A stretch of DNA of 21,254 nucleotides from a virus, in the IMG/VR virus record IMGVR_UViG_3300035698_001128, positions 1 to 21,254 of that record; one strand, written 5' to 3'. This document shows, piece after piece, positions 8,646-21,254 of the stretch. Below the pieces are notes generated by a model, which made no database searches, was not told where the DNA came from, and was given only the letters and a program-made list of their open reading frames with translations. How positions within the stretch are numbered: position 1 is the stretch's first letter; every line of letters begins with the position of its first letter. The position numbers and the translations under genes were made by a program.

Positions 8646-11600
8646 TTAAGTCCTTTGGATACCTGTAGCAATATTAGTATATCCGGCCCCACCTAATGAA
8701 AGTAGACCCTCTCCGTTTTCTTTAAAATTGAAATCGAAATATTGTTTATTGAATGTTAATAGCTCAACGTCAAAAGGACCGGGTACAGTTGGATCATATT
8801 TTATAGAAGATACTATAAAATATGCAGAATCCCCATTAGAAAACTCTATAAATATTGGATCCGAAAAAGAGAACTGAGAAATATCTGTAGAGGTTAACCT
8901 AAATTTAGCAGAGAATATTCTTTGTCCGTTAAGATTCTTATAGAAAGACTCGTAGTATTTTTCATAAGCCCCTGTTAAATCTAAAAATACTGGAGGTTGA
9001 TCAGATTTAAAGAACATATCGGTTCTTGTTTTTCTGTAATTTATATCTACCCCAGGAGACTCGTACGAGGAAATACCCCAGATATGAGATCCTATTGGTT
9101 CATCTGATCCATCTTTTAGATAATCAAAGTCACCAAAGTCTGATGGAAATCCAGGAATAACAAAATATGCTCTCATTTTAACCTCTCCTGTACCAGTACC
9201 TGCTATAGTAGTAACGTTAGGATTCTTATAAGCTAAGAATATTGAAGATGTATCTACTAAAGTTCTTTCACCTCTGTTGTTGGTAGAATATAAAGAAGGG
9301 TTTGGTACGTTCCATTGTAATACCTCACCGTCTATAGTTTGTTTTGTCTGTATATAGTTAGCAGGAAACGAGGTTTCGGCCAGACTTAAAGAAAAATTGG
9401 GAGTCAGTGAAGAAAAGATGGAAGTAAATTCAGTTTCTAAAGTAGCTTCGTTGTTAATAACGGATTTTAATGATCCATATTCAAGTTCGTCAGCGTTTGT
9501 TTCCTGGAATTCCTTGTCTATAACATTAGAGGTCTTTGTCATTCTAGATATAACGCTATACGGAGTAACGTCAGATGATATACTTCTTAATTCCTCTGTG
9601 TCTAATTTAATAGTCCAGTCCTTTATATCACCACCACTATAGAATTCGTCTCTAGGTTCAAAAGAAATACTTCTGGAATTCTGAGTTATTTCCGTATAGA
9701 TATTGAAATGTTTAAGTATTCCACTAATGAAATCCCTTTGAGTTATATTAGGTAAGGTTTGTTCCCAGTTATGAGATATTTCAGAAACGTCAGTTATAGA
9801 AAAATCAACAGCAAATTGGTATTTCCTTTGTTCTCCTGAAAATACACTACACCCAGCCTCGTTTGTTACTGATGAATATTCAGAAGAATCTAGAGTAAAC
9901 TCAAACTGTATTTCGTCGTTTTCCTCTACATCAACTACGAAATCTATAAAATTCCCCGCTGAATGTAAGTCATACGACCTTTCCCATTGGTAGTGTCCAC
10001 TTCCATCTTTAAAATAAACATCAGGAGTTGAAATATTCTGTGAAGTAGAAGTAACCCCAGAGATGTTTACGTTTTGTGATTCATTTCCGTTTTTTATTAT
10101 GGATATTTTAGAATCTGGACCAACCAAAGGACTTGCACCGTGTGGATATACGTTATCTAATCCACCTACACATACTCCACCATCAGAACCTATTAATTGG
10201 TCCCAGCCATATCTTACGTCTAATACCCCTTTAAATCTTAAAGTGTATTGACCCTTAGTTTGGAATTTTAATACTTGTGATTGTACATTAAATAATCTAA
10301 ACGGATCTTGCAGTCCTGAATCTGCATCAAAAGGAGAAGCACTAGGAATTGTTCCTCCTGAAGATATGTTACCAAGTATATTAGAAGACGTTACTGGAAC
10401 TGAGGTAGTTACAATATCAGGAAAATAGGAATCTGCAGTGGGTGAAGAACCAAATAATTTAACAGACGTATTAGTTTGAGAAACGTTAGAATCATAATAT
10501 AAAAGAAGTATAGTTTTAAATTCATCAGAATTAAAGAAATCCGACGTATAAGAGAAGTTAACATCGGTAAAGATTTTATCTATTAGATATTTAACGTATG
10601 CATACTGAGTTATATTATAACCAAGTCTTAATCCTACCTGGTTTGATTCAGTTGGTTCAAATGCTTCTGTTCTCCATATTCCGGTTTTACCTGAAGTTGC
10701 AGTAACGTTTGTATCTGTATCTGGTACTGGGTTAATCTCTTGTAATGAGGAAGGACAAGCATTAAATAGTACGGTTTCTAATGTTTCATCTTGACCAGAT
10801 CTTCTAAATAGTCTATTGAATCCACCTTCGCCGTCAGAAATACCACATCCACCAGCAAGGAAGTCTGCGGATTCCTGAGATCCTCCAGAATTTGGAAGAC
10901 CATTAGAGAATTTATATTGTATATCTTCTGCTCCAGAAATTTCATAAGAGATCTCATATACATCACCTCCCGTATCTATCATTAATAAAGCTCCACCTTC
11001 AAAAACCGGGTTGGTAAAGGTACCTATTAAATAAACACCATCAGAAGAAACAGTTTCGGATGAAAGATCTACGGTAAAAGTAATTATTGCACTGTCTGGG
11101 TTTTCTATATCAGTTACTATAATATCTGTATCTGGGAAACCCCAATCTGGATAGGCTAAAGTAAATCCAGAATATAAGTCGCCATTAACAGTAAACGTAT
11201 CTTCTGAATCTGTAGAGGAGAATACTGAATTAACATCTTCTGGGGTTGCATAAACTGGGGTAGGAATGTCAAGATCCGTTAAAAGCTTATTTCCTATCTC
11301 ATCAAATATATTAATCTGTGTTGCGAGAAAGGATACTTCAAAAGAATTAACATCTCCAGTTATAATATTTGCTTTTGTTAACTGAACCCTTCCCGAGAAA
11401 GTTAATATCCCATCAACAAACAATTGACCCTCAGTAACTGGGATCTGCCATTCGTTTTCGTTAACTATCGAACCCTGATATTCTTGGAAAGGCAGGGCAG
11501 TTGATATCATATAAGGAAACCCAAAGGCTTTCTGGTTTATAATAGTACCTGGTACTAAGAAAGTCTTAGAAAATGGTGCTTTCTTTTTAGATGGATCTAT

Positions 11601-17584: not shown

Positions 17585-18181
17585 TTAAAGGCCCGGAATT
17601 TGTATTTGGGAGCCAGAAAGCTTAATGATTATGGCATTAGTACCAGCTGTTGACATTATATGAATGTTACCACCAACACTTGGACATAAGAAGCTTGCTG
17701 CATTAATAGCATGAACTAATACGTCTTTTGGACTTGGTGATTTATTGGTCCATATATATCCAAGTGCATATTCTTCTCCTGCACCACATGCATCGTACGG
17801 GGTTTGACACTCAGATACAGAGAAATCAGAATATACGTGGAATAACCTATCCTTATAACCTATTAGAAACTCACCGCCTTCTATCTGTCCGTCATAATTT
17901 CTGGAATATAGATTATCTTCAAAGCATTGGATTAAAGAATTAGTGAATTTGGTACATAGATATTCATAAGGATCTTGCTTTTCGATTGGCGGAGGGCTAA
18001 AAGAGAATTGCATTAACTGGATCATCCTATATGATGTAGTAGCACCTATTATGAACTCGTCTAATTTAAAGACCTTCTTATCCTTTCTATGCTTTATTGC
18101 ATTGTCATTTGATCCTATAGAATCTGATGCTATTATTACCTCTTTCTTTATTGAATCTACTATACCTACTATACAAGTCAT
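17585..18181 (-). CDS. Proteasome/HslV-like Ntn-hydrolase
   Basis: The 198-aa protein has the fold signature of proteasome beta/HslV subunits. Thr2 follows the initiator Met and would become the N-terminal nucleophile. 'VIIASDSIGS' places an Asp at 20, and 'KDKKVFKLDEFIIGATTS' (33-50) supplies the Lys (34-36) and the turn into the next strand. Downstream, 'ACGAGEEYALGYIW' (131-144) matches the Gly-Ser/Ala-Gly-x-x-Tyr-Ala block of the family. A helix 'DVLVHAINAAS' follows, then the strand 'NIHIMSTAG'. Such enzymes cleave peptides as oligomers with an unfoldase. None is in the window. A prohead protease is already present, so the target is unknown. Confidence 0.7.
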   Translation of the reverse strand: MTCIVGIVDSIKKEVIIASDSIGSNDNAIKHRKDKKVFKLDEFIIGATTSYRMIQLMQFSFSPPPIEKQDPYEYLCTKFTNSLIQCFEDNLYSRNYDGQIEGGEFLIGYKDRLFHVYSDFSVSECQTPYDACGAGEEYALGYIWTNKSPSPKDVLVHAINAASFLCPSVGGNIHIMSTAGTNAIIIKLSGSQIQIPGL

Positions 18182-19655: not shown

Positions 19656-20888
19656 TTATTTTAGTGTTACTTTAAGATTTAAATCTAGAAACTTCTGGGT
19701 TAAACGATTAGTGGTTCTATTAAAAGCTAAATCCGAGACTAAAATTGAATCATGGCGGGTTAATACTGGAGTATTCTCTAATTTTGACGCGGAAATAAAG
19801 ATAGAAGCTTCTAAAGACTGCAATTTAAACCATAAAGTTCTTTCCTCTCCAGCTTGTTCAGCAGCGGATCTTGATTGAAACTTGAATTCGTTTATCTGGT
19901 CTACTAATAAAGGATAAACCGCTTCTAAACACTTAGCTAATTTACCTTTTATTAAACTATTGTTGAAAAACACTTTAGCAAACGAGATTAACTTGAATTC
20001 GTTTCTTGACATTCCCATATTTAGTGCCATTTTATCGTAGAAAGAACCATCTTCGCAGTCTGCTTTGAACTTTGGATTGTCTATTATAGCGTTTAGTAGT
20101 AAAGGCTGACAATTAGCTGCATCTATTTCCTTTACCCTGTTTCCATTTAGAGTTAAAAACGGTAAAGCCAGGCTCGGTAGGTTTGCAATAGATGTATAAT
20201 GTCTTCCTGTAGACGATTCTGAAAATGAATGTATACCTAGATTGATCTTTAGTCCTCTAATCTTTAAACCATATGCTACTTTGGGTGTTAATACGACACC
20301 CTTTCCTTTACTGAACTTATATACCTGTCCTACCTTGCTATCAACTGAATTAAAGTATCCCTCCAGATCAATTTTAGTCAAATATAGATCCTTTATATGC
20401 TTAATGTTACTAGGATTAGCTTCTATTAAATCTTTTAGAGAAGTAAACAACCTAACAATCTTTCTAAAATCAATTTGAATCTTTTGAGTGGACGAAAAAT
20501 CTAATTCTGGGTTTATTCTATAAGACTTTGAAAATCTACTTTCTGAATATTTATCATTTATGTCTATTAATCTAAGTTCTGAAAGTATTTGGAGTAATTC
20601 TGAATATGTAAACACCCTTTCGTCACATGTAATTCGGAATTTCTTAAATGTAGTTCTGGAAATATTTACATAAAAGTTGTTTAAAAAGGTATCTTTAGAT
20701 TCTCCATTAAGGCTAAACCTTTTTGCTGATTGAGCTATTAGTATATTTATCCAGAGTTGGATTAATCGATCTATTAGCTTTATTGAATTCTTTGGTGTTA
20801 TAGTAGGATAGATATTTTTAACATAATCTTGGATATGCTCTATAACTTGTACTGGAATTGGATAATCATTTGTTCTCATTGTTGTCAT
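19656..20888 (-). CDS. Divergent family A DNA polymerase-like protein without exonuclease
   Basis: The C-terminal ~200 residues of this 410-aa protein carry family A palm/finger motifs in order. Motif A is 'VKEIDAANCQPLLL' with Asp256. Motif B fits R295-x3-K299-x3-F303-x3-F307 ('RNEFKLISFAKVFF'), where F303 matches the Pol I Phe762 position. A 'LQSLEASIFISA' helix (356-367) matches the conserved Q-helix. Motif C is 'LTRHDSILV' with His379-Asp380. The Pol I Glu710 position appears to be Gln261, the Tyr766 position Phe307, and the acid after HD is Ser. The N-terminal half is unassigned, perhaps with a winged helix. There is no 3'-5' exonuclease. A replicative, repair or primer-extending role is inference. 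The gene has its own box and terminator. Confidence 0.65.
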   Translation of the reverse strand: MTTMRTNDYPIPVQVIEHIQDYVKNIYPTITPKNSIKLIDRLIQLWINILIAQSAKRFSLNGESKDTFLNNFYVNISRTTFKKFRITCDERVFTYSELLQILSELRLIDINDKYSESRFSKSYRINPELDFSSTQKIQIDFRKIVRLFTSLKDLIEANPSNIKHIKDLYLTKIDLEGYFNSVDSKVGQVYKFSKGKGVVLTPKVAYGLKIRGLKINLGIHSFSESSTGRHYTSIANLPSLALPFLTLNGNRVKEIDAANCQPLLLNAIIDNPKFKADCEDGSFYDKMALNMGMSRNEFKLISFAKVFFNNSLIKGKLAKCLEAVYPLLVDQINEFKFQSRSAAEQAGEERTLWFKLQSLEASIFISASKLENTPVLTRHDSILVSDLAFNRTTNRLTQKFLDLNLKVTLK

Positions 20889-20934: not shown

Positions 20935-21018
20935 GAAATACCTCTGCACTTTTTGTATATTCTTTATATTATTTACTTATCTAAACGCGACTTATATAAA
21001 CAGAACTTATTAAACAAA

Positions 21019-21052
21019 TTGGGGTTAGTAATCCACCAAGATCTAACCCCAA
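21019..21052. terminator. Strong hairpin, possible bidirectional terminator
   Basis: TTGGGGTTAG (21019-21028) is perfectly complementary to CTAACCCCAA (21043-21052) across a 14-nt loop. T-rich sequence follows on both strands (TTTTAATA on plus, TTTGTTTAAT on minus). With all genes on the minus strand, it most likely ends a transcript entering from the right edge. Confidence 0.75.
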
Positions 21053-21085
21053 TTTTAATAACAACAATGTCTTTAATAAGACACA

Positions 21086-21166: not shown

Positions 21167-21254
21167 ATTATAGTTAGGGATATCTTATCGATTATAGTTA
21201 GGGATATCTTATCGATTATAGTTAGGGATATCTTATCGATTATAGTTAGGGATA
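21167..21254. repeat. 24-bp perfect tandem repeat at the right edge
   Basis: Three identical 24-bp units (21167-21190, 21191-21214, 21215-21238) and 16 bp of a fourth run off the window. Each unit contains GATATC and ATCGAT palindromes and a TTAGGG string. A degenerate relative lies just upstream (about 21143-21166). The unit length is a multiple of three and one frame on each strand is open. Candidate iterons, a coding repeat, or a terminal repeat are all possible. Confidence 0.9.

Follow-up and report, generated by a model that had tools for sequence, protein, structure and literature searches.

A 410-residue PolA-like protein with an altered steric gate represents an unnamed protein clade carried by phages and bacterial integrative elements

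The window analyzed is the whole of the IMG/VR viral record IMGVR_UViG_3300035698_001128, a 21-kb fragment of 21,254 bases; the genomic contexts of the homologues are likewise fragments. ORF analysis placed the gene studied here (P0001) at positions 19656–20888 on the minus strand, where it codes for 410 aa, counted from the first ATG, within an open frame of 435 codons ending in a stop. The preliminary description of this region had given no strand; the plus strand is stop-rich and non-coding. Since the start of the nearest relative aligns to M4 of P0001, this methionine could be the true start. A structural module, recognized by reading the ORFs by eye, is found on the same strand as P0001; it contains genes resembling those for terminase, portal and capsid, along with one for a tape-measure-like protein. 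No other recognised replication gene was detected within the 21,254-base window. Both contig ends lie within tandem repeats (27 bp × 4.7 at 1–127 and 24 bp × 3.7 at 21167–21254), and therefore they are probably assembly breaks. The repeat at 1–127 consists of perfect 27-bp units inside a gene for a collagen-like tail protein. At 17585–18181 (minus strand) a 198-aa protein resembling N-terminal-nucleophile (proteasome-type) hydrolases is encoded (PF00227, E 0.0054, under the cut-off).

The 24-bp repeat at 21167–21254 is perfect, iteron-like and present in at least 3.7 copies (TRF score 176, 100% match), being cut by the contig end; it is located 279–366 bp upstream of the P0001 start codon. Its 16-bp core occurs in four exact copies, and five matches were found at up to three mismatches, against 0.83 expected. 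Between the repeats and the polymerase gene, an inverted repeat with CTAACCCCAATTT arms forms a strong hairpin at 21006–21065 (minus strand; DNA fold z-score −6.4), a candidate terminator or origin element. Among 72 regions upstream of family members, repeats exceeded those of shuffled sequences in two, the window (24 bp × 3.7) and the 27.4-kb phage contig L175 (a short pair); the other 70 showed no signal above shuffles, and iterons as a general feature of the family are not supported. Because beyond the window only L175 exceeds the shuffles, an iteron origin upstream of P0001 is a lead and not a result.

The entire length of P0001 is accounted for by an N-terminal wHTH domain, a linker and a polymerase core, in agreement with the previous claim of a 410-aa protein lacking an exonuclease domain. 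The wHTH domain comprises residues 10–126 (20511–20861, minus strand, as are all the following coordinates) and was delimited using a separate AlphaFold2 (AF2) model and VIA-align. It is followed by a connector, residues 136–227 (20208–20483), which the model resolves into a beta hairpin and four to five short helices; it stands in the place of a thumb, with no clear homology to a true one. The GRxYT motif (residues 228–232; 20193–20207) aligns with the T-G-R-L-S-S of Pol I (Klenow TGRLSS). Motif A (residues 250–264; 20097–20141), identified by conservation and by hhalign to PolA, reads EID256AANCQ261P262LL and contains the catalytic Asp, D256, with Q261 replacing E710 at +5. Motif B, the O-helix (residues 295–308; 19965–20006), contains R295-x3-K299-x3-F303-x3-F307 and was supported by conservation and by a helix at 295–307 in the model. 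The motif C hairpin (residues 375–385; 19734–19766) lies in the region VLTRHD380SILVS. The three motifs, proposed earlier from the letters alone, were thus recovered in both sequence and model, and their joint occurrence is far above chance. D256 and D380 would bind the two metals, and K299 and R295 would contact the triphosphate.

Conservation was counted without gaps in 48 phage representatives (75% identity clusters) of the 85 homologues. N at A+3, Q at A+5, P at A+6, F at B+8 and the HDS of motif C were each found in 48/48, and the residue at B−4 was R in 26 and K in 22. R229 of the GRxYT motif is kept in all 48 representatives and in 20/20 chromosomal members. The latter also retain D256, K299 and HD380 without exception, so that no catalytic residue varies between members from huge phages, from small phages and from chromosomes. 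Gln at A+5 was found in 18 of the 20 chromosomal members. The position equivalent to 762 is F or Y, and the 766 position, Phe in 48/48 phage representatives, varies in the chromosomal members, with Tyr in five of the 20.

A profile alignment against 81 PolA polymerase domains matched D256, Q261, R295, K299, F303 and D380 to Klenow D705, E710, R754, K758, F762 and D882, respectively. MAFFT and HHalign place a one-residue gap after F303 and thus pair F308 with Y766; however, helix 295–307 is ungapped in the model, which favours F307 as the Y766 counterpart. The changes of E710 to Gln261 and Y766 to Phe307 noticed in the preliminary description are real, each being present in 48/48 phage representatives, as is HDS for HDE. 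The steric-gate Glu (E710) and Tyr (Y766) are partners in Pol I, and for this reason both changes are best read as one coupled change and not as two. Q261 and F307 look like the loss of the hydrogen bond between the Glu carboxylate and the Tyr hydroxyl, with bulk retained at both sites. The replacement of HDE by HDS need not be a loss, since HDS is also the motif C seen in the T7 RNA polymerase profile.

The AF2 model of P0001, built with 45 sequences, had a pLDDT of 88 and a pTM of 0.81. In this model, strand 250–257 ends on D256, helix 295–307 bears R295, K299, F303 and F307 at i, i+4, i+8 and i+12, and a hairpin (375–378/381–385) carries D380 in its turn. A Foldseek search with the model gave 29 matches at E ≤ 1e-3, all of them Pol I enzymes (best 5e-5). 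VIA-align gave Pol theta (Z 15.1, rmsd 3.3 over 246 aa), tied with yeast mitochondrial RNAP (Z 14.8), T7 DNAP (14.5) and Bst (14.4); for this model, the fold search does not discriminate DNAP from RNAP. The palm/fingers topology, on which the earlier polymerase proposal had been made to depend, is present by AF2, Foldseek and VIA-align. The alternative then offered of a primase-polymerase-like enzyme is not supported in the archaeo-eukaryotic sense, because the fold matches are PolA and single-subunit RNAP enzymes; the archaeo-eukaryotic primase fold is absent among the matches listed, which does not imply its exclusion. The nearest predicted viral proteins are of about 400 aa, and one is named 'Putative DNA polymerase I', therefore scattered annotation of relatives exists.

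The N-terminal domain modeled alone (pLDDT 86.7) has the order helix-strand-helix-helix-strand-wing-strand. Its top VIA-align rows were mostly winged-helix DNA-binding domains (Z ≤ 7.2), among them the Rep/initiator structures 4pql, 4pt7, 4pta and 5kbj and ORC at Z 6.0–7.2, and Foldseek gave no match at E ≤ 1e-3. Given these Z values and the lack of a Foldseek match at that threshold, the wHTH is a topology call on the model, with no family assignment. A ribosomal L21 match from the PDB profiles (E 0.006) covers this domain and was judged to be due to chance.

Searches with the single P0001 sequence in Pfam, PHROGs, NCBIfam, PDB sequences and plasmids gave no convincing match. Nor did any other member tested match Pfam, NCBIfam or PHROGs convincingly, and none matched the PDB at the sequence level. 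PF00476 (DNA_pol_A) did not match P0001 and is absent from the family listings of 45 members. The PHROG 'DNA polymerase I' phrog_15971 matched one megaphage member at E 0.002, an assignment set aside as weak. By tblastn, remote homologues with 22%–26% identity were found in five unannotated phage genomes of 635–735 kb, and a scan of viral contigs with P0001 alone found nothing. When an alignment of P0001 and four megaphage homologues was used instead, 80 viral-contig loci were retrieved, many of them from huge phages; two, both from small contigs, had 44% identity. Homologues with a clear ORF have 380–460 aa. A genome scan added contigs of Planctomycetes, Verrucomicrobia, Opitutae and Flavobacteriaceae, and a profile scan found members in 38/397 sampled genomes of one flavobacterial family (about 1 in 10) and in 7/388 genomes of the Verrucomicrobia phylum. 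The family is thus carried by giant as well as small phages and by bacterial chromosomes or integrating mobile elements.

In profile–profile comparisons the nearest profile to the P0001 family was divPolA2 (prob 97.6, E 4.5e-12), followed by PolA (94.9, E 4.4e-8); divPolA2 against PolA gave 91.1 and E 1.1e-6, and 30 column-shuffled controls gave E 0.24–0.97. divPolA2 is a phage PolA variant described in barbaviruses (Yutin et al. 2024, Virol J 21:200; PMC11348598), and this group was also found in ICP1 and in Aeromonas and Vibrio phages. In a maximum-likelihood tree of 66 rows, the P0001 family (support 97/93), divPolA2 (100/99) and PolA (100/99) form separate branches, the first two being separated in 98%–100% of bootstrap trees; the tree has long branches and the branching order of the three groups is not settled. 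The window protein groups with those of L006 and L173 and with the chromosomal member L311.

The P0001 family resembles divPolA2 in its size (about 400–450 aa), its PolA palm, the lack of an exonuclease and of a PolA thumb (the latter judged from the order of elements), the extra N-terminal domain, the company of a family-B DNAP in large phages (16 of 17 huge-phage records, the window being a 21-kb fragment), and, for most sequences, a Pro at position +6 of motif A. It differs in motif A +5, mostly Glu or His in divPolA2 (Trp in Barba) and Gln in the P0001 family, and falls outside the divPolA2 clade; in the phage collection, tblastn with P0001 matches megaphages only and no divPolA2 record, and carriers of the P0001 family also include small phages of Bacteroidota and integrative elements in chromosomes. 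The P0001 family is therefore a real, intact clade of the PolA superfamily, previously unnamed, sister-like to divPolA2 and of the same kind, but separate from it. It had been suggested that the clade was undescribed; this stands for the clade, unnamed in the libraries searched and with its own tree branch, and not for the kind, because the related divPolA2 was published in 2024 (PMC11348598). With DNA polymerase I the family shares the palm/fingers fold, the motif A and C aspartates, the motif B Arg/Lys and the GR motif; it differs in having no exonuclease, no recognisable thumb, Gln for E710, Phe for Y766 and D-S for D-E, and in not being matched by the PF00476 Pfam model.

The likeness to the single-subunit RNAPs (T7, mitochondrial) extends to the fold (Z 14.8 with the yeast mitochondrial enzyme) and to HDS in motif C; P0001 is, however, far smaller. 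That P0001 is a small enzyme of the single-subunit RNAP kind, serving its phage or element as RNA polymerase or as RNA primase, with the wHTH binding a promoter or origin, is possible though not likely. The shared HDS, the missing steric-gate Glu and the equal nearness of the model to mitochondrial RNAP and DNAP are consistent with such an enzyme, and so is the presence of a replicative PolB in the huge phages. In T7 RNAP the motif A +5 residue is Gly, and Tyr639 handles the 2'-OH; P0001 has Q and F at these positions, which argues against an RNAP. So does the match of the family to the PolA profile (E 4.4e-8) and not to that of T7 RNAP (E 0.44), although the latter is a weak test because PolA itself also fails it (E 0.2). 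The 5'-3' exonuclease linked to the polymerase-like gene in L178 likewise suits DNA synthesis. A role of the RNA polymerase/primase type is among those proposed for divPolA2 (PMC11348598).

The genomic context differs among carriers. PF00476 PolA was found in none of 35 records carrying the family. Of 17 large huge-phage records, 16 contain a family-B DNAP and none a family-C DNAP. Of 47 viral loci, most of them on contigs of huge phages, 29 have an uncharacterised 446-aa gene upstream of the polymerase, usually adjacent to it; in huge phages, this gene and glycosyltransferases are the neighbours, with no obvious replication module. The upstream gene of L015:3713–5122 and 28 other viral loci codes for 440–470 aa with the motif EDxQGSKIW and no clear Pfam match. 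In the small phage L174 a gene with a DnaA C-terminal domain lies downstream of the polymerase; in L175 there was no DnaB match, and no second polymerase was recognised by eye. In L178 a 5'-3' exonuclease gene (PF02739, E 8e-11) is found at 10618–11553, directly downstream of the polymerase-like gene, a pair which resembles a split Pol I.

Among 20 chromosomal loci, 15 contain an integrase homologue and 14 an HTH gene, and nearly all of these genes lie upstream of the polymerase on its strand; the neighbours sampled were tyrosine integrases and HTH_17 proteins, and the order integrase–HTH_17 gene–polymerase was seen in about 14 of the 20. In five loci a tRNA-Ser lies 150–240 bp before the integrase. 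L312:1449–12231 is an element of 10.8 kb, bounded by 40-bp direct repeats at a tRNA-Arg, which contains an integrase, an AAA_24 ATPase, a DUF3871 protein, the polymerase and a cytosine methylase. Att repeats were clear only in L312; neither exact 15-mers nor tRNA tails revealed any in the other integrase-bearing elements. The polymerase ORF of L312, of 686 aa, includes a GIY-YIG/NUMOD1 homing-endonuclease part. Nothing relevant on int-xis-polymerase elements of Flavobacteriaceae turned up in the literature searched.

A repair or translesion polymerase that fills gaps for phages and elements without acting as an initiator seems unlikely. The absence of an exonuclease, the reduced thumb and the co-occurrence with PolB in huge phages would fit such an enzyme, and repair has been suggested for divPolA2 (PMC11348598); however, the frequent integrase–HTH–polymerase order, the wHTH domain and the repeats upstream in the window suit element replication better. 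It is very improbable that the polymerase fold serves another task, untemplated nucleotide addition or defence. Carriage by integrative elements, of which one also encodes a cytosine methylase, and a PADLOC match of P0001 to RT_UG26 (25 residues, E 5e-4) could be taken in its favour, but this match is short, lies outside the palm and was not found in four other members scanned, and the residues for metal and triphosphate binding show full conservation. As this was the sole PADLOC signal, a defence role was rejected.

It is on balance probable that P0001 is an intact, exonuclease-less, thumb-reduced PolA-like polymerase serving DNA synthesis or replication of mobile elements. The fold, homology, conservation, clade and gene order of the family are supported by the data above, and for P0001 we infer polymerase activity, a DNA rather than an RNA product and a replication role. 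The enzyme would be a template-dependent member of the PolA/single-subunit-RNAP superfamily, with a palm-fingers core at about residues 148–410 behind the N-terminal wHTH, and its likely task would be to synthesize DNA for its host element, whether in initiation, in priming or in filling gaps. It would likely be the replication protein of small phages of Bacteroidota and of the integrative elements with the integrase–HTH_17–polymerase order, and in huge phages an accessory polymerase beside the family-B replicase. Without a normal thumb, its processivity would be low. A replication role is favoured by the replication-type neighbours, namely the exonuclease of L178, the DnaA C-terminal domain of L174 and the AAA_24 ATPase of L312; the huge-phage neighbourhood (446-aa gene, glycosyltransferases) and the window, with no other recognised replication gene, speak against it.

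A more specific and decidedly doubtful proposal is that P0001 is a fused initiator-polymerase, in which the wHTH would bind the 24-bp iterons that adjoin the gene, after which the PolA-like core would itself make the first strand or primer. One protein of about 400 aa would then choose the origin and start DNA synthesis, and its variants would be the replication module of small phages and of the Bacteroidota integrative elements with the integrase–HTH_17–polymerase order. P0001 resembles wHTH initiators (RepA_N Rep, ORC) in its predicted N-terminal topology and in the tandem repeats upstream in the window; the Z values of its N-domain stay under 8, too low for an assignment to these initiators. 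Classical Reps are not known to have a polymerase domain.

If active, P0001 would rank with the smallest PolA-type polymerases found in nature, its steric gate being rebuilt as Q/F for E/Y, and its family suggests that the PolA fold may shed both thumb and exonuclease yet retain the active site. A probable function is thereby offered for an unnamed gene recurrent in integrative elements (38/397 genomes of the flavobacterial family) and huge phages. Two questions become testable: the role of an extra PolA-like enzyme in phages that have a PolB, and a possible recruitment of the PolA fold for primer-free initiation.

Some weak chromosomal matches in Verrucomicrobia (L297–L302) are fragments or longer ORFs, the longest having 707 codons; these may be relatives at a greater distance. 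The divPolA2 gene of the Vibrio cholerae phage ICP1, at L191:1489–2793, is annotated as hypothetical.
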